A DNA stretch of 64,000 bases. It comes from Myxococcales bacterium (lineage in GTDB: Bacteria > Myxococcota > Myxococcia > Myxococcales > Anaeromyxobacteraceae). The stretch spans positions 1 to 64,000 of the forward strand of contig JAJZQX010000013.1 of NCBI GenBank assembly GCA_021806645.1, in the 5' to 3' direction. Below the pieces are notes generated by a model. The model worked only from the letters and a program-made list of their open reading frames with translations. It searched no databases and was not told the DNA's origin. Shown here one piece after another: positions 27,982 to 41,131 of the stretch (the first letter of the stretch is position 1; the number at the start of each line of letters is the position of its first letter). The position numbers and the translations under genes were made by a program.

Positions 27982-30723
27982 CTAGTGCCCCTGGCCGGGG
28001 TCCGCGTCGGCCAGCGCGGCGATCCCCCGAAGCAGGTCGGCGCGGTCGACCACGCCGACCAGCCGGCCGGCGCCGTCGACCACCGCGAGGATCTTCCGCT
28101 CGTTCTCGATCATCTTGGCGATGGCCTGCCCGATGGGAACCTCCTGGTTCACCGAGGGAACGCCCTGGAGCATGAGATCGGCGGCGTGGCGCGCCTGGGC
28201 CTGGAGCGCGGCCCGCGGAGCCCCGGACTCGGCGTGGGCGAAGGGCAACCGCTGCGCCAGCGAGCGCAGCAGGCCCGGACGCAGCGCCGGGGCCATGCGG
28301 GCCATCAACTCGGCGTCGGTGATGAGCCCGACCACGCGCCGGTTGTCGTCCACCACGAACGCCTTGTTGAGGCGGGTGGAGATCACCGCCTTGAGGACCT
28401 CGGCCAGCGGAGCGTCGTGCCTCACCGTCGGGATGTCGGTGCGCATGATCCGCGACACCGCCGCTCCGGAGGGAACCGGCGCCATGAGACGGGAGGGCTC
28501 CCCCGGGCGAGCGAGGCCGACCGCGGCCCGCAGCAGGTCTACCCGGCTGACCATGCCCACCAGCGTGCCGCCCGCGTCCAGGACCGGCAACCGCTTGAGG
28601 TGCCGCTTCGCCATGAGGTTGGCGGCGCGGCGCGCCTGCGCCGAGGCCTGCACCGTCTCCGGACTGGCGGTCATGATGTCGGCCGCCGTCCTGGCCTCAC
28701 CGGTCAACCCATCGAGGAGCCCGTGGACGTCGGCCCAGCCGAGCCCGCGGAGGAGCTCGATCCGGACACCGAGCCCCCCCCGCAGCATCAAGTCGCCGTT
28801 GGTGATGATCCCCACCAGCCGCCCGCCCTCCACCACGGGGAGCGCCCGGTGCCCCCCCAGGAGCATCGTCTCCACGACCTGGCGCAGCCCCGCCGACGGC
28901 GCCACGATCTCGACCTCCCTGCTCATCACCTCGGAGACCAGCAGCCGGGCCGGAATGGGGCCGAGGCCATCGGCCTCCCGGGCCGCCAGCTCGCCGGCGA
29001 GCCGGAGGGTGGTGGCGGCGTCGTCGGAGGCGATCACGCCGGGCTGGGCGAGGAGTCCGGAGCGGTCCACGACCTGGCGCGGTTGCGGCCGCAGGCCGTG
29101 GAGGATGGCCGTGGCGCCGGCGGCCCGGAGCCTGCCGATGGCGCTCTCCAGGGCGACCATGCCGGTCGAGTCCATGGCCGGGACCTGCTCCAGCCAGAAG
29201 ATCACGACCCGGTCACGCTCGGCGATGGCGCTCAAGGCGCCCATGGCCTTCTGGGCGGCGCCGAAGAAGAGCGGTCCGGAGACCCGGTAGACGGCCACGC
29301 CGGCGGGGAGCGGCCCGGGCAGCGGCGTCTCGGTCTCGCCCATGAGGCCCGCCTCGGTCACCACCGCCATGCGCCGCATGAACAGCAGGGCCGCGAGCCC
29401 CATGCCCACCCCCACGCCGATGACCATGTCAGTGAAGACGGTGAGGCCGAAGCAGGTCAGGAGCACGGCCACGTCGCTGCGGGGCGCCACCTTGACGGTG
29501 TGCACGAAGTGCTTCGCCTCGGACATGTTCCAGGCGACCAGGATCAGGAGGGCGGCGAGCGAGGTCATCGGCAGGAAGCCGAGCGCCGGAGCCAGGAGGA
29601 GGACGGCCGCCAGGATGGTGAGAGCGTGAATCACCGCCGAGATGGGCGTGCGCCCCCCCGACCTGATGTTCGTCGCCGTGCGGGCGATGGCGCCGGTGGC
29701 CGGGATCCCGCCGAAGAAGGGCGTGACCAGGTTGCCGATGCCGATCGCGAGCAGCTCGGCGTCCGGATCGTGGCGGGTGCGCGCCATGCCGTCGGCGACC
29801 ACCGCCGAGAGCAGCGACTCGATGGCGCCGAGGACGGCGATGGCGAAGGCGCTCGGCAGGAGCGCCCGGAGGGTGGCCAGCGAGAGCTGGAGCGGCTGCC
29901 CCCCCGGGCCGGGCGCTAGCCAGGGCAGCAGGGGGAGGGGCGGCAGCTGGGGGATCCCGTCGATCAGCCGGCCTCCGATCTCGGCATGGAAGCGGCTGGC
30001 GATGGTGGAGATCTCCACGCCGCCGAAGCGCGACAGGGCGGCCGCGAGGACGGCCGCGGCCGACAGCGCCAGGAGCGGGGCCGGCACCCGCCGCGTCAGG
30101 CGCGGGATGACGAGGAGGAGCAGCAAGGTGAAGAGCCCCACGCCGAGTTCCCAGGGCGAGACCGTTCCGCCGGCCTCGATCATCGCCTTGACCTGCTCGG
30201 CGAAGTGCGCGGGGTTGTGGGCCAGGCGGAGCCCCAGCAGGTCCTTGAGCTGCAGGACGGCGATGACGAGGGCGATGCCGGCGGTGAAGCCGGTGGTGAC
30301 CGGGTGCGGGATGAACTCGATGAGCTTCCCCATCCGGAACAGCCCCATGGCGACGAGGACCAGCCCCGCGAGCAGGCCGGAGAGCAGGAGACCGGCGACG
30401 CCGAAGCGGACCACGATGGGCGCCAGGATGACGACGAAGGCCGCGGTGGGTCCCGTCACCTGGGTGCGCGAACCGCCCAGCACGGCGACCAGTCCGCCCG
30501 CCACGATGGCGGTGTAGATGCCGTGCTGCGGCGGAACGCCGACCGCGATGGCGAGCGCCATGGACAGTGGCAGGGCGACCATGCCCACCACCAGGCCGGC
30601 CATCAGGTCGGCGCGGAAGGTCGCGAGCGTGTAGCCCTCCCGCAGCGCGGCGCGGAGCGCTCCGGCGGGGAGGTCGCGCAGCGGGACGTCGTGCGCTGGG
30701 CCTGCGTATCTGGTTCTTGCCAC
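27982..30723 (-). CDS. SulP-family anion transporter with STAS and four CBS domains
   Basis: 913 aa. Residues about 35-430 are the SulP membrane domain (about 10-14 spans) with LPLSMALAIAVGVPPQHGIYTAIVAG near the start and the family block GNLVTPFFGGIPATGAIARTATNIRSGGRTPISAV. A STAS domain follows at about 455-565 (VYRVSGPLFFGAAQKAM, VPAMDSTGMVALESAI). The last 310 residues hold four CBS units, each with an xxDIM/SEVM start and an LVGIITNGDLM-type end, making two Bateman modules that usually bind adenine nucleotides. SulP proteins import sulfate, bicarbonate or other anions. The CBS extension suggests gating by cellular energy or nucleotide state; this is inference. Confidence 0.88.
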   Translation of the reverse strand: MARTRYAGPAHDVPLRDLPAGALRAALREGYTLATFRADLMAGLVVGMVALPLSMALAIAVGVPPQHGIYTAIVAGGLVAVLGGSRTQVTGPTAAFVVILAPIVVRFGVAGLLLSGLLAGLVLVAMGLFRMGKLIEFIPHPVTTGFTAGIALVIAVLQLKDLLGLRLAHNPAHFAEQVKAMIEAGGTVSPWELGVGLFTLLLLLVIPRLTRRVPAPLLALSAAAVLAAALSRFGGVEISTIASRFHAEIGGRLIDGIPQLPPLPLLPWLAPGPGGQPLQLSLATLRALLPSAFAIAVLGAIESLLSAVVADGMARTRHDPDAELLAIGIGNLVTPFFGGIPATGAIARTATNIRSGGRTPISAVIHALTILAAVLLLAPALGFLPMTSLAALLILVAWNMSEAKHFVHTVKVAPRSDVAVLLTCFGLTVFTDMVIGVGVGMGLAALLFMRRMAVVTEAGLMGETETPLPGPLPAGVAVYRVSGPLFFGAAQKAMGALSAIAERDRVVIFWLEQVPAMDSTGMVALESAIGRLRAAGATAILHGLRPQPRQVVDRSGLLAQPGVIASDDAATTLRLAGELAAREADGLGPIPARLLVSEVMSREVEIVAPSAGLRQVVETMLLGGHRALPVVEGGRLVGIITNGDLMLRGGLGVRIELLRGLGWADVHGLLDGLTGEARTAADIMTASPETVQASAQARRAANLMAKRHLKRLPVLDAGGTLVGMVSRVDLLRAAVGLARPGEPSRLMAPVPSGAAVSRIMRTDIPTVRHDAPLAEVLKAVISTRLNKAFVVDDNRRVVGLITDAELMARMAPALRPGLLRSLAQRLPFAHAESGAPRAALQAQARHAADLMLQGVPSVNQEVPIGQAIAKMIENERKILAVVDGAGRLVGVVDRADLLRGIAALADADPGQGH

Positions 30724-31298: not shown

Positions 31299-32711
31299 TC
31301 ATGCCGAATCGGCATTGGGCCGCGGAGGCCTCCGCGCCCGGTACCCGCTCAGCTTGGTGTAGAGCGTCCGCAGGCCGATGCCGAGCACCCGGGCGGCCTC
31401 GCGCTTGCCGGGGTGGCGTCGAAGGGTGGCGAGGATGAGTTCCCGCTCCGCGGTGGCCAGGCTGCAACCCACCGGGAAAGAGAGCTCGCCGCTCCCGGCC
31501 GCGTCCTCGCCGGGGCGGGGGGTCCGGCCACCGCGGAGCGGCAGGTCGGTGAAGCCGTCCAGGCCGATGGTGTCCCCGGAAGCCAGGATGGAGGCGCTCT
31601 CCACCGCGTTCTTCAGCTCCCGCACGTTCCCCGGCCAGTCGTAGTCCATGATGGCCCTGAGCGCCGTCGGGGAGATCCCCAGGATCTTCTGGCCATTGCG
31701 CCGGTTGAAGTCGGCGATGAAGGAGTCGATGAGGGCCGGGATGTCCTCCTTGCGCTCGCGGAGCGGGGGGACGACCAGCGTGACCACCTTGAGCCGGTAG
31801 TAGAGGTCCTCGCGGAACGTCCCGGTCCGGATGGCGTCGTCGATCTTCCGGTTGGTGGCGGCGAGGACGCTCAGGTCCACCTTGACCTTGCCCGTTCCTC
31901 CAACCCGCCGGAACTCGTTGCGCTCCAGGACGCGGAGGAGCTTGGCCTGGGTGGCCGGGTCCATCTCGCCGATCTCGTCGAGGAAGAGGGTGCCGCCGTC
32001 CGCCAGCTCGAAGAGCCCCTTCTTCCGCTCCGCCGCGCCGGTGAACGCGCCCCGCTCGTGGCCGAACAGCTCGTTCTCCAGCAGTTCGCGCCCCAGGGTG
32101 GCGCAGTTGATCGGCACGAAGAGCTGCTGCCGGCGCGGTCCCCGGGAGTGCAAGGCGCGGGCGATGAGCTCCTTGCCGGTGCCGCTCTCGCCGAGGATCA
32201 GGACATTGGTCTTGTAGCGCGCGATCTTGTCGATGGTGGCGAGGACGCCGCGGATGCTCGCGGAGGTCCCGACCAGGCCGGCCAAGGCAGCGGATGGGCC
32301 CGGCGGCGGTTCCTCCGGGCGCGCCGCCCGCTCCAGCAAACGCCCGAGCCGCGCCAGCAGGGTCTCGGCGTCGAGCGGCGGCGCCAGGTAGTCGGCCGCG
32401 CCCTGCTGCATGGCGTCCACCGCCTCCTGGACCGTGCCCGAGGTCCCGAGCACGATCACCGGCACCTCCGGGCGCTGGTGGCCGGCCCGCGCCACCAGGC
32501 TGGTTATGGCCACCGGGCCGAAGGACTGCGGGATGAGCGCCGCGGCCAGCGTCTCGCGGCCGAGGGCGGCCAGCGCCTCGGCCTCGCTCGACACGACGAC
32601 GGTGGTGAAGCCCACCGACGAGAGGTGGCGCGAGAGCGGCGGCCCGGCCCCTCCGGCGGACCTCAGCACCAGGCACCTGTACCCGCTCCCCCAGCTCCTG
32701 CTCTTCGGCAC
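31299..32711 (-). CDS. Sigma-54-dependent activator with degenerate receiver
   Basis: 470 aa from the GTG at 32711 with GGGAGG upstream. The N-terminal receiver-like domain (about 12-125) has AALIPQSFG where the Asp strand should be, so it is probably not phosphorylated. The AAA+ domain (about 140-370) has Walker A GESGTGKE, the sigma-54 contact loop GAFTGA, Walker B GGTLFLDEIGEM and the Arg-finger region. A C-terminal Fis-type helix-turn-helix (HPGKREAARVLGIGLRTLYTKL) binds DNA. It is divergent from the hydrogenase-like operon that begins with a sigma-54-type promoter, so it is the likely activator of that operon, as HyfR and FhlA are for hydrogenase-4 and -3. Confidence 0.92.
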   Translation of the reverse strand: MPKSRSWGSGYRCLVLRSAGGAGPPLSRHLSSVGFTTVVVSSEAEALAALGRETLAAALIPQSFGPVAITSLVARAGHQRPEVPVIVLGTSGTVQEAVDAMQQGAADYLAPPLDAETLLARLGRLLERAARPEEPPPGPSAALAGLVGTSASIRGVLATIDKIARYKTNVLILGESGTGKELIARALHSRGPRRQQLFVPINCATLGRELLENELFGHERGAFTGAAERKKGLFELADGGTLFLDEIGEMDPATQAKLLRVLERNEFRRVGGTGKVKVDLSVLAATNRKIDDAIRTGTFREDLYYRLKVVTLVVPPLRERKEDIPALIDSFIADFNRRNGQKILGISPTALRAIMDYDWPGNVRELKNAVESASILASGDTIGLDGFTDLPLRGGRTPRPGEDAAGSGELSFPVGCSLATAERELILATLRRHPGKREAARVLGIGLRTLYTKLSGYRARRPPRPNADSA

Positions 32712-32857
32712 CGTGGACCTCCCGCGGACCCGCCGCAGTCTAGTGCCGTTCCGGCACGCCAGCCAGCCACCTCTCGCCGGCCGCTCCGGCGACGCCCTGC
32801 TGGAGGAATGGCCGCCCGCGCCCGTCATCCCGGCCTTTCTCGCGCCCGTCTCGATAA

Positions 32858-32873
32858 TGGCGCGCCCGCTGCA
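32858..32873 (+). promoter_or_regulatory. Candidate sigma-54 promoter of the hyf-like operon
   Basis: TGGCGCGCCCGCTGCA matches the -24/-12 consensus (TGGCACG-N4-TTGCA) at 14 of 16 positions, counting the four free positions as matches. The GG and GC cores are exactly 10 bases apart. Start of transcription would fall near 32884. The divergent neighbour encodes a sigma-54 activator. Confidence 0.6.
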
Positions 32874-32887
32874 GGTCCGGTAGCGTC

Positions 32888-34927
32888 GTGGCCTGGAACC
32901 AGACGATCCTGGGGACCGGCAAAGACCCGATACCGACCTTGAGCCTCCTCCTGATCATCGCCGCCTCCTGCCTGGCCGCCACCAGCGGTGGCTGGGCCCT
33001 GGCGCTGCGCCGCCGGCCGGCGCTGGCCCAGCGGGTGGCCACCGCGGTGCTGGTCCTCGGCGCCGTCCTGGGGATGGCCGGCGCGGTGCTGGCGCTGGCG
33101 GGGCAGGGGGCGGCCTGGACGTCGGACTGGCCGACCCCGCGCGCCTCGCTCTCGATGAAGGTGGACGGCCTCTCGGCGTTCTTCCTGCTTCCGGTGCTCG
33201 GCCTGCCGGCGCTCGCCTCGGTCTACGGGCTCGGCTACTGGCCCCAGGTGGAGCGCGGCGCGCAGTCGATCCGGCTCCAGCTCTACTTCGGCCTGGTGAC
33301 CGGGGCCATGGCGATGGTCTGCGTGGCCGCCAACGGCATCCTCTTCCTGGCGGCGTGGGAGGTCATGGCGCTGGCCGGCTTCTTCCTGGTGTTCACCGAG
33401 CACGAGAAGCCCGAGGTCCAGCGCGCGGCGTTCGTCTACCTGGCCGCCGCGCATGCCGGGAACCTGGCGCTCTTCGCGCTCTTCGCGCTGCTCGGCCGGA
33501 TGGCCGGCTCGTTCGAGTTCGCCGCCATGAGCGGGCTCGACGGCGGCGCGCCGCTGGCCGGCTGGGTCTTCGGCCTGGCCCTGTTCGGCTTCGGGCTCAA
33601 GGCCGGCCTGGTGCCGCTCCACTTCTGGCTGCCGGGCGCCCACGCCGCGGCGCCCAGCCACGTCTCGGCGCTCATGTCGGGCGTCCTGCTCAAGACCGGG
33701 ATCTACGGGATCCTCCGGGTCACCGGCTTCTTCGAGGCGGTGCCCCCGGCCTGGGGTGGCACGCTGCTCCTCATGGGCACCGCGTCGGCCGTGCTCGGGG
33801 TGGCCTTCGCGCTGGCCCAGCACGACGTGAAGCGGCTGCTGGCGTACCACTCGGTCGAGAACATCGGCATCATCGCCATGGGCGCGGGGCTGGCGCTGCT
33901 CGGCCGCGCCAGCGGGAACCCGGCCCTGGTGGTGCTCGGCTTCTCCGGCGCGGTCCTCCACGTGGTGAACCACGCCACCTTCAAGGGGCTGCTCTTCCTC
34001 GGCGCCGGGGCCGTCCACCACGCCACCGGGACCAGGGAGCTGGATCACCTCGGGGGCCTGGGTCGGACCATGCCGGTCACCGCGGCGCTCTTCCTGGTCG
34101 GCGCGGCCGCCATCTCGGGCCTCCCGCCGCTCAACGGCTTCGCCTCGGAGTGGCTGGTCTTCCTGGCCTCGTTCCAGGCCGTCGTCGGCCACGGTGCGGG
34201 GTCGACGCCGCTGGCCGGCCTGGCCGCGCCCGCGCTGGCCCTGGTCGGCGGGCTGGCCGCCGCCTGCTTCGCCAAGGTGTTCGGCACGGTCTTCCTCGGC
34301 CACGCCCGCTCCAGCCACGCCGAGCACGGCCACGAGGCGGCGCGCACCATGCTCGTTCCCATGGCGGCGCTGGCGCTGGTCTGTGCCGCCATCGGCCTCT
34401 TCCCGGTGGCCTGGGTGCCGTCGCTCACCCGGGCGGCCGGCGAGTGGTCCGGGCTTCCGGCCGCCTCGCTCGCGGGAGCGGCAGGTGAGGCGGCGCACGG
34501 GGCCTGGCGGGTGAGCCTGGTCGCGCTGGCGCTACTGGCCGGCGTGGGGCTCCTGGCCGGGTGGCGCCGCCGGCGGCTGGGAAGCGTCCAGCCGGCCGCG
34601 CCGACCTGGGGCTGCGGGTTCGCCCGCCCGTCGCCCCGCATGCAGTACACCGGCTCCTCCTTCGCCGACCAGCTGGTCCTCCGCTTCGGCTGGGTCTTCT
34701 TCCCGCGAACCCGGGTCGAGCCGCCCACCGGCCTCTTCCCGCGCCGCGCCGCCTTCGGCTCGCACATGCCCGACACGGTCCTCGACCTGGCCATCCTCCC
34801 CGCGCTCGGCTCGGGCGTCCGGGTCGCCGATCGGCTGCGCGCCCAGTTCGGTGGCCGGGTCCAGTCGAAGGTGCTGCTGGTCCTGCTCGGGGTCCTCGGC
34901 CTGCTCGCGTGGCTGGGACTGCGGTGA
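32888..34927 (+). CDS. HyfB-like antiporter/proton-pump membrane subunit
   Basis: 679 aa from a GTG at 32888. If transcription starts near 32884, the TTG at 32939 may be the real start (662 aa). It is an NuoL/M-type protein with about 15 membrane spans. It keeps the charged residues of the proton path: Glu in LAAWEVMALAGFF, Lys in FGLKAGLVPLHFWLPGAHAAAPSHVSALMSGV, and HDVKRLLAYHSVENIGII. The C-terminal part has the HyfB-type soluble stretch RMQYTGSSFADQL and a last span. It is the first gene of the operon, and its stop overlaps the start of the next. Confidence 0.88.
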   Translation: MAWNQTILGTGKDPIPTLSLLLIIAASCLAATSGGWALALRRRPALAQRVATAVLVLGAVLGMAGAVLALAGQGAAWTSDWPTPRASLSMKVDGLSAFFLLPVLGLPALASVYGLGYWPQVERGAQSIRLQLYFGLVTGAMAMVCVAANGILFLAAWEVMALAGFFLVFTEHEKPEVQRAAFVYLAAAHAGNLALFALFALLGRMAGSFEFAAMSGLDGGAPLAGWVFGLALFGFGLKAGLVPLHFWLPGAHAAAPSHVSALMSGVLLKTGIYGILRVTGFFEAVPPAWGGTLLLMGTASAVLGVAFALAQHDVKRLLAYHSVENIGIIAMGAGLALLGRASGNPALVVLGFSGAVLHVVNHATFKGLLFLGAGAVHHATGTRELDHLGGLGRTMPVTAALFLVGAAAISGLPPLNGFASEWLVFLASFQAVVGHGAGSTPLAGLAAPALALVGGLAAACFAKVFGTVFLGHARSSHAEHGHEAARTMLVPMAALALVCAAIGLFPVAWVPSLTRAAGEWSGLPAASLAGAAGEAAHGAWRVSLVALALLAGVGLLAGWRRRRLGSVQPAAPTWGCGFARPSPRMQYTGSSFADQLVLRFGWVFFPRTRVEPPTGLFPRRAAFGSHMPDTVLDLAILPALGSGVRVADRLRAQFGGRVQSKVLLVLLGVLGLLAWLGLR

Positions 34928-35844
34928 ACGGCATGCTCTTCACGGCCCTCCAGCTCGCCGCCTTCCTGGTCCTGCCGCCGCTCCTGCTCGGCGTCATCGG
35001 GCGGGTCAAGTCCCGGGTCGCCGGCCGCGAGGGACCGCCCCTGCTGCAGCCCTGGCGCGACCTGCTCAGGCTGGCCGGCAAGGGGGCGGTCTACAGCCGG
35101 ACCACCACCTGGGTCTTCCGCGCCGGCCCGGTGGTCGGCCTGGCGGCGATCCTCGCGGCGGGGCTGCTCATGCCCCTCGGGGCGCCTTCGGCGACCGTCG
35201 CCTTCGCCGGGGACTTCGCCCTGCTGGCCTCCCTGCTCGGCCTGGCCCGCTTCGTCACCGTCGTGGCCGCGCTCGACACCGGCTCGTCCTTCGAGGGCAT
35301 GGGGGCCGCCCGCGAGGTCACCTTCTCGGCGCTGGCCGAGCCGGCGCTCTTCCTGGGGCTGGTCTCGCTGGCGCGCTCCACCGGCGGCCTCGACCTGACG
35401 CACCTCCTTGGCGACGGACTTGCGGTCGCATGGAGGAGCGACGCCTCGTCGCTCCTCCTGGTGGCGCTGTCGATCTTCGTGGTGGCTCTGGCCGAGAACG
35501 CCCGCATCCCGGTGGACGATCCCGCCACGCACCTGGAGCTCACCATGATCCACGAGGTCATGGTGCTCGATCACTCCGGCCCCGACCTGGCGCTCATCCA
35601 GTACGGCGCCGCGCTCAAGCTCTACCTGTTCGGCGCGCTGGTGGTGAAGCTGGCGCTGGGCGCCCGCCTCGCCGATCCGGCGGCGGCGTTCGCCGCCTTC
35701 CTGGCCGGGCAGCTCGCCTTCGCGGCGGCCATCGGCCTGGTGGAGGCGACCATGGCCCGGCTCCGGCTGGTGCGGGTCCCGCAGCTCCTCATCGGCGCGT
35801 CGGTCCTCTCCGGCTTCGCGCTGGTGCTGCTCCTGAGGACCTGA
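34924..35844 (+). CDS. HyfC/HycD-like membrane subunit (NuoH homologue)
   Basis: 306 aa. The GTG at 34924 overlaps the hyfB stop by 4 bases (GTGA); the ATG at 34933 is the alternative. About eight membrane spans. Family blocks: GRVKSRVAGREGPPLLQPWRDLLRL after the first span and the conserved acidic loop RIPVDDPATHLELTMIHEVMVLDHSGPDLALIQYGAALKLYLF. In complex I and group 4 hydrogenases this subunit joins the membrane arm to the Fe-S module and is thought to couple electron transfer to ion movement. Confidence 0.9.
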   Translation: MNGMLFTALQLAAFLVLPPLLLGVIGRVKSRVAGREGPPLLQPWRDLLRLAGKGAVYSRTTTWVFRAGPVVGLAAILAAGLLMPLGAPSATVAFAGDFALLASLLGLARFVTVVAALDTGSSFEGMGAAREVTFSALAEPALFLGLVSLARSTGGLDLTHLLGDGLAVAWRSDASSLLLVALSIFVVALAENARIPVDDPATHLELTMIHEVMVLDHSGPDLALIQYGAALKLYLFGALVVKLALGARLADPAAAFAAFLAGQLAFAAAIGLVEATMARLRLVRVPQLLIGASVLSGFALVLLLRT

Positions 35845-35851
35845 CCGGACC

Positions 35852-36499
35852 ATGACCACCTGGGCCGACCTCCTGTTCCTCCTGGTCCTCGTGCTCGACC
35901 TGTTCGTGCTCGCCTCGTCGCGCCTGCGCGCCGGCATCCGCGCCGTGGCCGCCCAGGGCGGGCTGCTGGCGCTGCTGCCGGTGGTGCTGGCGGGCCCGGC
36001 CACCGAGACGCGCCACGTGGTGGCGCTGGCGCTCGGCGCGCTGGCGGTGAAGGGCGTGGGCATCCCCTGGCTGCTGGCCAGGGCCACCCGGGAATCGACG
36101 GTGAACCGGGAGGTGGCGCCGCTGGTCGGCTTCGCGCCCAGCATGGTGCTCGGCGCCCTCGGCATCGTGGTGGCCGTCTGGTACGCGGGGCCCATCCCGC
36201 TCCCGGTTCCCGGCAAGCACCCGCTGCTGGTGCCGACCGCCATCGGGACCGCCTGGACCGGCCTCCTCCTCATCGTCACCAGGCGCAAGGCCGTCGGCCA
36301 GGTGCTCGGCTTCCTGGTCCTCGAGAACGGGGTCTTCGTGCTCGGCCTGCTCCTCTCCGACTTCATGCCCGCCATGGTCGAGGTGGGGGTGCTGCTCGAT
36401 CTCTTCGCGGCGGTCTTCGTGATGGGGCTGGTGATGTTCGACATCCAGCGCGCCTTCAGCTCGCTCGACACCGAGAAGCTGGCGTCGCTCAAGGACTGA
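35852..36499 (+). CDS. HyfE-like membrane subunit
   Basis: 215 aa, ATG start, about seven membrane spans. The C-terminal half has the NuoK-like core (ARKAVGQVLGFLVLENGVFVLGLLLSDFMPAMVEVGVLLDLFAAVFVMGLVMFDI-type arrangement) with Glu in the span VLENGVF. The chain ends SLDTEKLASLKD, as in HyfE. It is the small proton-channel subunit of hydrogenase-4-type complexes, fourth-last in the operon and 7 bases after hyfC. Confidence 0.88.
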   Translation: MTTWADLLFLLVLVLDLFVLASSRLRAGIRAVAAQGGLLALLPVVLAGPATETRHVVALALGALAVKGVGIPWLLARATRESTVNREVAPLVGFAPSMVLGALGIVVAVWYAGPIPLPVPGKHPLLVPTAIGTAWTGLLLIVTRRKAVGQVLGFLVLENGVFVLGLLLSDFMPAMVEVGVLLDLFAAVFVMGLVMFDIQRAFSSLDTEKLASLKD

Positions 36500-36503
36500 T
36501 CCC

Positions 36504-37931
36504 GTGCTCCTCCTGGTCGCCGCCCCGCTCCTGCTCGCCGCCGTCGCCTTCGCGGCGCCGTGGAGCCGGCTGCGACCGCCGGTGCTGCTGGCCGGCGCGC
36601 TGGTCCACTTCGGGACGGTGGCGTGGCTCTGGGCGGCGCCGCCCGCGCCGGCGTTCGGCGGGTGGCTGGCCATCGACGCCGCCGGCCAGCTCGTCCTCCT
36701 GCTGGTCAGCACGCTCTTCCTGGTCTGCGCCGTCTACGCCCAGGGCTACCTGGCCCGGCGCCGCGACCGCGACAACCGCGCCTTCGTGGGTGGTCTCCTC
36801 GTGCTGCTGGCCGCCATCTCCGCGGTGGCCATGGCGCAGCACCTCGGCCTGCTCTGGGTGGCCATCGAGATCACCACGCTGGCGACGGCCCCGCTCATCT
36901 ACTTCAACCAGAACGAGCTCGCGCTCGAGGCGGCCTGGAAGTACCTGGTGGTCTGCTCGGTCGGCATCGCCATGGCGCTCCTCGGGACCTTCCTGCTGGC
37001 GCTGGCCTCGGCCGGTCCGGGTGGCCCCCGCTCGCTGCTGCTGGCCGACCTGGTGGCCGCCGGCCCCGGCCTGGCGCGTCCCTGGGTCCGCTTCGCCTAC
37101 GTCTTCCTGCTGGCCGGCTACGGCACCAAGATGGGGCTGGCCCCCTTCCACGCCTGGAAGCCGGACGTCTACGGCGAGGCCCCCGGCCTCCTCGGGGCCC
37201 TGCTCTCCGGCGGCGTCACCAGCGTGGCCTTCCTGGGCATCATCCGCGTGCTCCAGGTCTGCCTCGCCGCCGGGGAGGGTGGTTTCGCTCGCCAGGCGCT
37301 GGTGGCGCTGGGGCTGCTCTCCATCGGCCTGGCGGCCGTCTTCCTGATCCGGCAGCGCGACCTGAAGCGCATGCTGGCCTACTCCAGCGTGGAGCACATG
37401 GGCATCCTGGTGCTCGGCGTCGGGCTCGGCGGCGCGGCGGCCACCGGCGCCTTCCTGCACCTCCTCTACAACGGCCTCACCAAGGGGGCGCTCTTCCTCA
37501 CCGCCGGGAACATCCACCGCGCCTTCGGCACCAAGGACATCGACAAGCTGCGGGGCGCGGCGCGGGTCCTGCCGGTCTCCGGTCCGGTCTTCCTGGCGGC
37601 CTTCCTCGCCATCACCGGCTCGCCGCCGTTCGCCCCGTTCTTCAGCGAGTTCGCCATCCTCGACGGGGCCGTGCAGGCCGGGGCCTGGGGCCCGGCCGCG
37701 GCCTACCTGGTCGGCCTCGCGGTCATCTTCGTCGGCATGGGGGCCACGGTGCTGCGCGTCGTGCAGGGGGTTCCACCCGAGGAGGCGAGATCGACGGCCA
37801 TGGGCGACACGCTGCTGACCGCCGGTCCGCCGCTGGCGCTCCTGGCGGCGATCCTGGCGCTCGGCCTCTGGGTGCCGGCGCCGCTGCGCACGCTGGTCGG
37901 CGCGGCGGCGGCGCTGGTGGGGGGCGGGTGA
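36504..37931 (+). CDS. HyfF-like antiporter/proton-pump membrane subunit
   Basis: 475 aa with a GTG start 4 bases after hyfE. About 14 spans, NuoM/N type. Conserved charges: Glu in LLWVAIEITTLATAPLIY, Lys in GYGTKMGLAPFHAWKPDVYGEAPGLLGALLSGG and RQRDLKRMLAYSSVEHMGILVLGVGL. HyfF together with HyfB gives the complex two antiporter-like pumps. A separate HyfD is not present. The stop overlaps the start of the large subunit by one base. Confidence 0.88.
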   Translation: MLLLVAAPLLLAAVAFAAPWSRLRPPVLLAGALVHFGTVAWLWAAPPAPAFGGWLAIDAAGQLVLLLVSTLFLVCAVYAQGYLARRRDRDNRAFVGGLLVLLAAISAVAMAQHLGLLWVAIEITTLATAPLIYFNQNELALEAAWKYLVVCSVGIAMALLGTFLLALASAGPGGPRSLLLADLVAAGPGLARPWVRFAYVFLLAGYGTKMGLAPFHAWKPDVYGEAPGLLGALLSGGVTSVAFLGIIRVLQVCLAAGEGGFARQALVALGLLSIGLAAVFLIRQRDLKRMLAYSSVEHMGILVLGVGLGGAAATGAFLHLLYNGLTKGALFLTAGNIHRAFGTKDIDKLRGAARVLPVSGPVFLAAFLAITGSPPFAPFFSEFAILDGAVQAGAWGPAAAYLVGLAVIFVGMGATVLRVVQGVPPEEARSTAMGDTLLTAGPPLALLAAILALGLWVPAPLRTLVGAAAALVGGG

Positions 37932-39457
37932 TGCCGGGGCGGGTCCTGCTGGTCGCCAATGGCCAGGCGGTGGACGCCGCGGCCGTCCCGCGCCTCCCGC
38001 CGGAGGAGTTCCAGCAGATCCTCTCGGACGCGGTCACCGCCGGGGCCAGGGTGTCGGCCTATTACGGCCAGGCCCTGCCCGGGCAGCCCGAGGCGGTGCT
38101 GGTGACCGCGGTCCTGGCCAACGACGCGGAGGGGCGGCTCGGCCTGCTGGCCACCGTGGCCGGGGAGTCCCTCCCGTCCCTCGCCGAGGAGTGCCCGTCG
38201 CTGCAGCTCTTCGAGCGGGAGCTGGCCGAGCAGTTCGGCGTGGTGCCGCTCGGCCATCCGTGGTTGAAGCCGGTGCGGTACGAGCATCCGATGGGCGGTA
38301 AGGGCGCGGCGCGAGGGACGGCCGCCGCTCGCCCCACCATCCCGGGCGACACGCCCTTCTTCGCCGTCACCGGCGAGGAGGTCCACGAGGTGGCGGTGGG
38401 CCCGGTGCACGCCGGCATCATCGAGCCGGGCCACTTCCGCTTCCAGTGTCACGGCGAGCACGTCTTCCACCTCGAGATCTCGCTCGGCTACCAGCACCGC
38501 GCCATCGAGCGGATGCTGCTGGGTGGCCCCTCGCGCCGCACCACCGTGCTGGTGGAGTCGATCGCCGGCGACACCGCGGTGGGCCACGCCGTGGCGTCGG
38601 CGCGGGCCGTCGAGGGGCTGGCGGGCGTGGAGGCGCCCCCGCGCGCCGCGGCGTTGCGGGCCGTGGCGCTCGAGCTGGAGCGGCTGGCCAACCACGTCGG
38701 CGACCTCGGCGCGCTGGCGGGCGACGTCGGCTACCTGCCGGCGGCCAGCTTCTGCGGGGCGCTGCGGGCCGACTACCTCAACGCCCTCGCCGAGATCTGC
38801 GGCAACCGGTTCGGCCGTGGCCTGGTGGTGCCGGGCGGGGTTCGCTTCGACCTCCCGGCGGAGGCCGGCGTGCGGCTCGCCGTCCGGCTGGCGCTCACCT
38901 GGGAGAAGGTGGAGGAGGCCGCCGGGCTCTTCTTCGAGTCGGCGTCGGTCAGGAACAGGACCGACGGGACCGGCCTCCTCGGCAAGGAGGTGGCCGTGCA
39001 GCTCGGGATGGTCGGCCCCGCCGCGCGTGGCTCGGGCCTGACGGTGGACGTCCGGCGCAGCCACCCGTTCCCGCCGTACACGGCCACCCGGGTGCCGGCG
39101 GTGACCGCCTCGAGCGGCGACGTCTTCGCGCGGGCCTGGGTCCGGCTCGAGGAGGCCCGCCACTCGGCGCGCCTGGTGGGCGAGTGGCTGCGTGCCCTCC
39201 CGCCCGGAGAGGTGCGTTCCGAGCTCCCGGCGCTGGCGCCGCACCGGCTGGCCGTCTCGCTGGTCGAGGGCTGGCGCGGCGAGCTCTGCCACGCCGTCAC
39301 CACCGGCGGCGACGGCCGGTTCGACCGCTACAAGGTGGTGGACGCCTCGTTCCACGACTGGATGGGGCTCCAGCAGGCGCTGCGCGCCGAGCAGATCTCC
39401 GACTTCCCGCTCTGCAACAAGAGCTTCAACCTCTCCTACTGCGGACACGACCTGTGA
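37931..39457 (+). CDS. HyfG/HycE-like large subunit lacking the NiFe ligands
   Basis: 508 aa: an N-terminal NuoC-like domain (about 1-125, ending ERELAEQFGVVPLGHPWLKPVRYEH) fused to a NuoD/hydrogenase-large domain. The N-terminal metal motif, normally ExxCGxCxxxH, reads E209-SIAGDTAVGHA with no Cys. The C-terminal motif, normally DPCxxC, reads C495-NKSFNLSY-C504-GHDL: two Cys but eight residues apart, four residues from the natural end. Hydrogenases carry a C-terminal peptide removed by a maturation protease; none is present here. The subunit therefore should not bind a NiFe centre and resembles the Ehr (energy-converting hydrogenase-related) group. Its reaction partner is unknown. Confidence 0.9.
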   Translation: MPGRVLLVANGQAVDAAAVPRLPPEEFQQILSDAVTAGARVSAYYGQALPGQPEAVLVTAVLANDAEGRLGLLATVAGESLPSLAEECPSLQLFERELAEQFGVVPLGHPWLKPVRYEHPMGGKGAARGTAAARPTIPGDTPFFAVTGEEVHEVAVGPVHAGIIEPGHFRFQCHGEHVFHLEISLGYQHRAIERMLLGGPSRRTTVLVESIAGDTAVGHAVASARAVEGLAGVEAPPRAAALRAVALELERLANHVGDLGALAGDVGYLPAASFCGALRADYLNALAEICGNRFGRGLVVPGGVRFDLPAEAGVRLAVRLALTWEKVEEAAGLFFESASVRNRTDGTGLLGKEVAVQLGMVGPAARGSGLTVDVRRSHPFPPYTATRVPAVTASSGDVFARAWVRLEEARHSARLVGEWLRALPPGEVRSELPALAPHRLAVSLVEGWRGELCHAVTTGGDGRFDRYKVVDASFHDWMGLQQALRAEQISDFPLCNKSFNLSYCGHDL

Positions 39458-40272
39458 AGGGACTCCTGCGAACCCGGCTCCACCTGGGCCGCCAGACCAT
39501 CGCCTATCCGGACGGGCCGGCCCGCTTCCCGGAGCGCTTCCGTGGCCGGCCGGCGCTCGCCCCGGAGCGCTGCGCCGAGGGCTGCCAGCGCTGCGAGGCG
39601 GTCTGCCCCACCGAGGCGATCAGCGGCGCGGCGCTGAAGGCGCTCGCCCTCGACACCGGCGCCTGCACCTTCTGCGGGCTCTGCGAGGAGGCGTGCCCCG
39701 AGCAGGCCATCGTCTTCACGCGCGACTACCGGCTCGCCATGCGGAGCCGCGACGAGCTGGTGATCCGGGGCGACCTGCCCCAGCTGGCCGCCGCGCTCGA
39801 CGCCAGGATGAAGCGGCTCTTCGGCCGCTCGCTGAAGCTGCGGCAGGTGTCGGCCGGCGGGTGCAACGGCTGCGAGGCCGAGCTCAACGCGGCCGGAAAC
39901 GTCCAGTTCGACCTCTCCCGCTTCGGGATCCAGTTCGTGGCCTCGCCGCGCCACGCCGACGGCCTGGTGGTGACCGGGCCGGTGACGGAGAACATGCGGG
40001 ACGCGCTCCTCGCCACCTGGGAGGCGACGCCCGCCCCGCGGCTGCTCATCGCGGTGGGGGCGTGCGCCTGCTCCGGCGGTCCGGTGGCGGGGAGCCCGGT
40101 CTGCGCCGGGGGGCTGGCCGGGGTCATCCCGGGTGCCCAGGTCGATCTCTGGATCCCCGGCTGCCCGCCGCACCCGGTCACCCTGCTCGACGGCCTGCTC
40201 CGGCTGCTGGGGCAGATCGAGGGCGACGACCTGCGGCTCGAAGGGACAGGGGTGATCGAGCCGCCGGCGTGA
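39454..40272 (+). CDS. Fused HyfH-HyfI: 2x[4Fe-4S] ferredoxin plus NuoB-like small subunit
   Basis: 272 aa from the GTG at 39454, overlapping the large-subunit stop by 4 bases. Residues about 38-95 hold two 4Fe-4S motifs ([13 protein letters not shown] and [12 protein letters not shown]). Residues about 125-255 are the small subunit with its proximal cluster Cys: [15 protein letters not shown] and PGCPPHP. In E. coli these are two proteins (HyfH and HyfI); here they are one chain. All cluster ligands are kept, in contrast to the large subunit, so electrons can still be relayed through the complex. Last gene of the operon. Confidence 0.9.
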
Positions 40273-40355: not shown

Positions 40356-40456
40356 GATTCCCGGTCACAGACGATTCGCTCGTAGGTCAACCTCTTGGGT
40401 TGTTACATTCAGTCGCACCACGTCTCACCCCCCCCCCACACGTTCCAGGAGACACC

Positions 40457-41131
40457 ATGTCGCGTATCGCCAAGCTGGCTTCAATCATGGCTGGACTGAC
40501 TCTTCTCGCCGGTTGCTCCGGTTCCAAGGGCGCGGACGGAGCGGTCGGTCCCACTGGCCCCACCGGTGCCACGGGCGCCACCGGTCCCACCGGTCCCGCG
40601 GGCACGGACGGAGCGGTCGGTCCCGCGGGTCCTGCTGGTCCCACCGGCGCGACCGGCCTAACCGGAGCGACCGGTCCCGCTGGCGCGACCGGTCCCGCTG
40701 GCGCGACCGGCCCGCAGGGCATCTCGGGCGTGGTCAACACGCGGTATGTCAACACCGCCACCGGGAGCGCGGCCTTCGTCGGCAGCGCCTTCCAGTACTT
40801 CTGCAAGACCCCCGCTTACGTCGCCGGAGTCAATGAGCGCGCCGTGATCATCGTCCAGGCCTCGGTAGAGTTCCTGCCGGTCGGCTCCGGCCTCGGCGTG
40901 CGGCCCGGCTACAACGTGAACGGCGGCGCAGACATCAACTTCGGCGTTTGGCACTATCAGAAGAACAACGGTAACGGCGCGGCCGGCGTCACCAACGGCA
41001 TGAGCGGCGTGCTCAACCTGACGGCCGGTTCCACCTACATCTTCTCGGCGGCCGTGAACGATTCGGAATCCGTCGGGTTCCCGGCGACCTTCGTCTACTG
41101 CAACACCCTGGTGACGGTCGTCAAGATCTAG
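40457..41131 (+). CDS. Lipoprotein with collagen-like Gly-X-Y repeats
   Basis: 224 aa from the ATG at 40457 with AGGAGA upstream. Residues 1-20 are a lipoprotein signal with lipobox LAGC (Cys20). Residues 25-91 are 22 uninterrupted G-x-y triplets (mostly GPT, GAT, GPA, with GAD and GTD), a bacterial collagen-like stalk expected to form a triple helix. The C-terminal 130 residues are beta-rich with several Cys and aromatic residues ([31 protein letters not shown]) and look like a trimeric head domain; no family recognised. The protein is probably displayed at the cell surface. The repetitive codons (ACCGGTCCC-type) make the gene prone to length change. Confidence 0.85.

Follow-up and report, generated by a model that had tools for sequence, protein, structure and literature searches.

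An Ehr-type complex with a hydrogenase-like large subunit that lacks the NiFe-binding cysteines in a Myxococcales bacterium

The operon at 32888-40272 (forward strand) of the window, i.e. the whole stretch of 64,000 nucleotides of Myxococcales DNA that was analysed, encodes a member of the Ehr ("Ech-hydrogenase-related") complexes, and thus not a new type of complex. Its large subunit resembles that of the group 4 hydrogenases, and sequence comparison supports the view that it is unable to hold a standard NiFe centre. The Ehr/Hyq-type complexes are built like hydrogenases and complex I, yet the cysteines that would bind the metal are missing, so they probably pump ions by means of another redox reaction.

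The operon and its surroundings

The operon contains six tightly packed genes, the fifth of which encodes the large subunit. Judged by its gene content, it specifies what is a complete complex I-like machine with a ferredoxin-type subunit feeding it. The features are as follows (residue numbers refer to the respective protein).

31299..32828, reverse strand: divergently transcribed sigma-54-dependent regulator
32888..34927, forward strand: HyfB/EhrA-like antiporter subunit, 679 aa (Pfam Proton_antipo_M, 3.9e-50)
34933..35844, forward strand: HyfC/NuoH-like membrane anchor, EhrB (Pfam NADHdh, 1.9e-29)
35515..35574, forward strand: family-specific chamber loop of the anchor, residues 195-214 DDPATHLELTMIHEVMVLDH, with HLELTM.HE, 3 residues longer than in HyfC/HycD
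35852..36499, forward strand: HyfE-like subunit, EhrC, with a NuoK-like part (NCBIfam hydrogenase 4 membrane subunit, 8e-26, under the cutoff)
36504..37931, forward strand: HyfF-like antiporter subunit, EhrD (Pfam Proton_antipo_M, 2e-50), with conserved E122, K209 and K327
37931..39457, forward strand: large subunit of the EhrL/HyqG type, a NuoC-NuoD fusion of 508 aa without NiFe ligands, ATG at 37931
38399..38443, forward strand: beta1-beta2 loop of the large subunit, residues 157-171 GPVHAGIIEPGHFRF, hydrogenase Glu kept, complex I His absent
38555..38590, forward strand: former first CxxC region, residues 209-220 ESIAGDTAVGHA, G213-D214 invariant in 70 close relatives
39395..39454, forward strand: former second CxxC region and C-terminus, residues 489-508, cleavable tail absent
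39454..40272, forward strand: small subunit, EhrS, a HyfH-like ferredoxin domain fused to a NuoB/HyfI-like domain
39571..39696, forward strand: small-subunit ligands of two [4Fe-4S] clusters, C40, C44, C47, C81 and C71, C74, C77, C51
39862..40164, forward strand: small-subunit ligands of the proximal [4Fe-4S] cluster, C137, C140, C204 and C237, CxxC of hydrogenase type

The membrane subunits have retained the charged residues that are linked to proton transfer, both in the antiporter-like parts and in the E-channel. The HyfB-like subunit, for which hydrogenase 4 subunit B is the best NCBIfam match (under its cutoff), keeps the conserved residues E158, K238, H245, K269, H358, E421 and C576, the last of which lies in an ND3-like C-terminal loop and corresponds to HycC Cys537. 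The NADH module (NuoEFG) is absent from the six-gene operon.

The set of a NuoL/HyfB-type subunit, HyfC, HyfE, HyfF and a large and a small subunit is that of the Ehr complexes, which lack the NiFe ligands and whose function is given as unknown in the literature (PMC6349859, PMC10284858, PMC4378227, PMC3569383). Named examples are those of Geobacter sulfurreducens (GSU0739-0745), Sulfobacillus, Nitrospira and Desulfotomaculum. The likeness extends to subunit types, gene order and loss of the NiFe ligands; the comparison used two Geobacteraceae MAG loci (L053 and L060) in place of the GSU sequences of G. sulfurreducens. There are differences as well: many relatives, and Geobacter, have seven genes including a second HyfB-like antiporter, and the EhrL of D. 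ruminis was reported to retain the four cysteines (PMC3569383). The initial annotation had used the Ehr complexes as an outside comparison for the gene; the shared lack of CxxC pairs was seen correctly, but the gene itself belongs to Ehr.

The sigma-54-dependent regulator likely controls the operon. Within the family, 11 of 24 genomes, representing two of six genera, carry an ortholog of it, and in two relatives (G022 and G021) this ortholog sits between two Ehr operons. The second of these, which is diverged and transcribed in the opposite direction, lies beyond the regulator (L096 1828-8944 and L097 1235-8448, respectively). A GG-N10-GC match close to the operon start (32858-32873) is not claimed as a sigma-54 box, as it was not seen in two relatives and as shuffled sequence yields matches of this kind at least as often as the window does. 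Further out, the regulator adjoins a gene for a large protein that resembles SulP-type transporters with CBS repeats (27982-30723, reverse strand), and a collagen-like Gly-X-Y repeat protein is encoded immediately downstream of the operon (40400-41128).

The large subunit and its lost NiFe ligands

Alignment with E. coli HycE places the four NiFe ligands C241, C244, C531 and C534 at A212, T215, S502 and G505. The absence of Cys from residues 209-220 and the two Cys at 495 and 504, with eight residues between them, had been read correctly from the sequence, but given these ligand columns C495 and C504 are not shifted ligands. Similarly, the reported lack of a cleavable C-terminal peptide holds: the protein terminates at the point where HycE and HyfG are cleaved, and since its last residue, L508, aligns with HycE R537, the final residue ahead of the cleaved peptide, the gene directly encodes the mature length. 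The four Cys ligands and the processed tail that mark a group 4 [NiFe] hydrogenase are thus absent. The ligands are likewise missing at all four columns in 70 of 70 close sequences, save for one stray Cys at 212, and because these sequences also share the replacement motifs around the lost ligands, a sequencing error does not explain the loss.

Other hydrogenase features have been kept. Residue E165 of the beta1-beta2 loop equals HycE E193 and MbhL E21, and H255, E408, R366 and R449 equal HycE H284, E437, R395 and R478, whose roles in the proton path were taken from PMC9474812. In 65 of the 70 close relatives Asn takes the place of the canopy Asp (HycE D529), and the quinone head-group pair of complex I, Nqo4 H38 and Y87, is replaced by I164 and G213. 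The best solved structural match is 7z0s_E, a hydrogenase-3/4 subunit (TM 0.79/0.76). The AlphaFold model, a monomer, has pLDDT values below 50 in two segments of the chamber, residues 130-188 and residues 489-508, and chamber distances were therefore not drawn from it.

Compared with hydrogenase-3/4 (HycE, HyfG), the complex thus keeps the loop Glu and the proton path, whereas the NiFe ligands, the cleaved tail and a formate dehydrogenase-linked subunit are absent and the anchor loop is remodelled. With the MBS and MBH complexes of Pyrococcus and with complex I it shares the architecture, the three-loop chamber and the Fe-S relay, but it has neither the quinone pair nor the NADH module of complex I. 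The chamber fits none of these three types: a hydrogenase would have the Cys, complex I would not have I164 and G213, and MBS would have neither four proximal Cys nor the loop Glu. The last comparison bears on the idea that a sulfur substrate such as polysulfide is reduced in the chamber at the proximal cluster, as in Pyrococcus MBS, which likewise has neither NiFe ligands nor quinone residues (PMC7684303). MBS, however, has a shortened proximal motif with three usable Cys and no loop Glu, whereas here there are four ligands with hydrogenase spacing and E165, and we consider sulfur reduction very improbable.

Conserved residues of the chamber

In solved relatives one chamber is enclosed by the anchor loop and the beta1-beta2 loop together with the site of the metal or the quinone (PMC9474812, PMC7684303). 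In the family studied here this chamber carries the motifs GPxHAxIIEPGHF, GD and NKSxNxSYxGxDL of the large subunit and HLELTM(I/V/L)HE of the membrane anchor, four elements that, including the lengthened anchor loop, are jointly family-specific. The two NuoH genes of the window genome lack the anchor signature. When the window protein is compared with eight distant relatives carried on plasmids, the invariant residues include H160, E165, G213, H255, R366, E408, R449, N496, K497, S498, S502, Y503, G505, D507 and L508. As the peptides with which the collection loci were retrieved exclude residues 209-220 and 489-508, the conservation in these two regions is no search artefact. C173, in contrast, seemed invariant among the close relatives but was covered by a search peptide and varies in plasmid-borne relatives, and was rejected as an invariant residue.

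The new site built from C495, C504, E209 and H219 that was proposed originally does not hold for the family, be it as a metal or as a disulfide site. The two Cys occur together in 51 of the 70 close relatives and all four residues in 44; in the Hyq branch E209 and C504 are absent and H219 mostly so, and the foursome is complete in none of the Hyq sequences examined. Alternatively, the conserved chamber might be a catalytic site in its own right, at which H2 or some other small substrate is turned over in the absence of NiFe. We regard this as quite improbable; if true, it would reconcile the Hyq genetics (see below) with the missing ligands.

The small subunit and the electron donor

The ligands of the proximal cluster follow the CxxC pattern of hydrogenases, as opposed to the adjacent-Cys type of complex I. 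The assignment of the ferredoxin-domain ligands is supported by their pattern of loss: six relatives from two lineages have lost the ligands of the first cluster as a set of four, while the second set is never lost.

A partner formate or CO dehydrogenase, encoded elsewhere, might dock on the ferredoxin domain as feeder. A pairing of formate dehydrogenase and Ehr was proposed in other phyla (PMC6349859), Ehr subunits are more abundant in Geobacter grown on formate (PMC7894505), a CO dehydrogenase is adjacent in one comammox Nitrospira (PMC5596200), and the window genome has five molybdopterin-oxidoreductase matches. Nevertheless, the window operon holds no dehydrogenase gene and no conserved neighbouring enzyme that could act as donor or acceptor was found in the compared Ehr loci, which makes such a feeder unlikely. 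By eye, the large clusters of flanking ORFs resembled antisense or shadow frames of genes of the operon. Four matches to POR_N, of the 2-oxoacid:ferredoxin oxidoreductase type, are present in the genome, and such enzymes could supply reduced ferredoxin.

Several other genes of the same genome are relevant. There is a single Ehr large subunit; the other matches to it are two NuoD-type genes and one Cys-bearing NiFe hydrogenase, which carries RICGVC and DPCLAC. Hence no second large subunit that could assemble with these subunits and rescue a NiFe site, one of the findings that were to overturn the initial annotation, is evident. The two NuoD genes are of the complex I type, with matching surroundings, and lie on one contig in opposite orientation (G000:C23:72734-78125). 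HypD is also encoded elsewhere, and with the Cys-bearing hydrogenase this means that NiFe maturation is available, although the window large subunit cannot use it in the usual way. A molybdopterin oxidoreductase gene (G000:C22:121505-122947) has one in-frame TGA and is possibly a selenocysteine formate dehydrogenase.

Distribution of the family

In genomes of bacteria and archaea, a scan turned up 56 loci, mostly with about 50-75% identity to the query, from Planctomycetota, Verrucomicrobiota, Kiritimatiellota, Acidobacteriota, Elusimicrobiota, Thermodesulfobacteriota, Pseudomonadota and others. Nearly all have the same operon, with one gene order across many phyla. The loci L047 and L042 have the genes for the large and small subunits and no membrane-arm genes within reach on the contig. 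Within the Myxococcota, 31 of 149 near-complete genomes have Ehr, and so does every one of the 24 genomes searched from the family of the window bacterium. Plasmid-borne relatives with 35-44% identity occur in rhizobia, Azospirillum, Cupriavidus, Variovorax, Rhodococcus and Allomeiothermus.

In a tree with few outgroups (two E. coli hydrogenases and three complex I sequences) the 70 Cys-less sequences share a single branch (100/100), separate from HyfG/HycE and complex I. Within it, a Hyq-type branch without the ferredoxin domain is separated from a larger branch that includes the window gene; the Geobacteraceae members fall inside the same Cys-less clade, and Rhodococcus and Allomeiothermus sit on long branches. 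A Variovorax plasmid (L101 4893-21416) has two Ehr/Hyq operons in tandem, the first large subunit of which groups with the ferredoxin-fused branch, whereas the second, a partial sequence, looks Hyq-like.

This distribution speaks to the suggestion, made for Geobacter KN400, that the complex is a decayed hydrogenase without function. The NiFe ligands have indeed been lost, and a 2026 paper called the Geobacter Ehr nonfunctional (PMC13194489). Yet the operon is open, the chamber, cluster and membrane residues are strictly conserved across many phyla and not one of the family genomes searched lacks Ehr, so that decay is scarcely credible.

Relation to the Hyq "endo-hydrogenase"

The hyqRBCEFGI operon of Azorhizobium, with an ortholog in Rhizobium 3841, was named a hydrogenase on genetic grounds (PMC2650096, PMC2930871). 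It shares with the window operon the order B-C-E-F-G-I, a large subunit without CxxC and the chamber signature. It differs in sequence (~35% identity), in the HyqI subunit, which lacks the ferredoxin domain that the window small subunit has, and in its control by NifA. Already in 2012 HyqG was stated to lack both CxxC motifs, and the authors doubted a NiFe site (PMC3357923). In the literature searched we found no work that joins the Ehr and Hyq literatures.

The Hyq genetics, which claim hydrogen turnover without a NiFe site, are in open conflict with the missing ligands. Hydrogen turnover by the purified complex was also to overturn the initial annotation, and such turnover has thus been claimed for a homologue. 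The complex could be a hydrogenase nonetheless, with H2 or protons turned over at a site without NiFe that the new conserved residues form, as claimed in vivo for Hyq. In A. caulinodans nodules the hup hyq double mutant evolves H2 and the single mutants do not (PMC2930871), growth of the hyq mutant on N2 is slower (PMC2650096), H2 production was attributed to Hyq (PMC3357923), and the window large subunit retains the hydrogenase Glu and proton path. On the other hand, the growth deficit remains when 20% H2 is added (PMC2650096), and no purified enzyme was found in the literature searched. Two of the HyqG cysteines that were called conserved, C491 and C497, align with C495 and L501 of the window protein; a single one is thus shared, and C495 does not occur throughout the family. 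The window genome has a separate Cys-bearing hydrogenase and no nitrogenase match above the cutoff; the claimed role of Hyq in nitrogen fixation therefore does not transfer to this bacterium. Altogether we consider hydrogen turnover improbable.

Proposed function

We give nearly even chances to the reading that the operon product is a ferredoxin:quinone oxidoreductase coupled to ion translocation. A membrane complex is well supported, and the operon, the cluster ligands, the loss of the NiFe ligands, the membrane charges and the chamber signature are evident from the sequence. We infer the ferredoxin donor, the direction, the ion and the quinone acceptor, the last by elimination and from the architecture. 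Reduced ferredoxin, or a low-potential donor of a similar kind, would deliver electrons to the fused ferredoxin domain, whose two [4Fe-4S] clusters would hand them on to the proximal one, also a [4Fe-4S] cluster. A substrate would then be reduced in the chamber, at the place of the NiFe centre in hydrogenases and of the quinone in complex I; this is likely to be a membrane quinone held by the family-specific residues. The reaction would drive ion translocation via the two antiporter-like subunits, and run in reverse it may yield reduced ferredoxin.

In MBS and complex I the loss of NiFe opens the chamber to hydrophobic substrates (PMC7684303). Nevertheless, because Nqo4 H38 and Y87 are replaced and the canopy Asp is mostly Asn, quinone binding would need a new mode. 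The hydrogenase-type proximal cluster and the Hyq genetics, read as hydrogen turnover, also count against a ferredoxin:quinone reaction. The donor may moreover differ in the Hyq branch, since this branch has no ferredoxin domain. The more general proposal of the initial annotation, ion pumping driven by another redox reaction, is what an intact operon with conserved charges in its antiporter-like subunits naturally suggests, and is also the published reading for Ehr; the new cysteine site that accompanied it was not borne out.

Significance

The finding is a sound reading of an already known kind of complex. Ehr-type complexes are widespread, and the Hyq branch has been published as a hydrogenase despite its missing metal ligands. 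The link between Ehr and Hyq, together with the list of truly conserved residues, provides concrete targets for mutagenesis. If H2 turnover were real, a hydrogenase site without NiFe would exist; if the ferredoxin:quinone reaction is true, it would be an overlooked coupling site in many aerobes and anaerobes.
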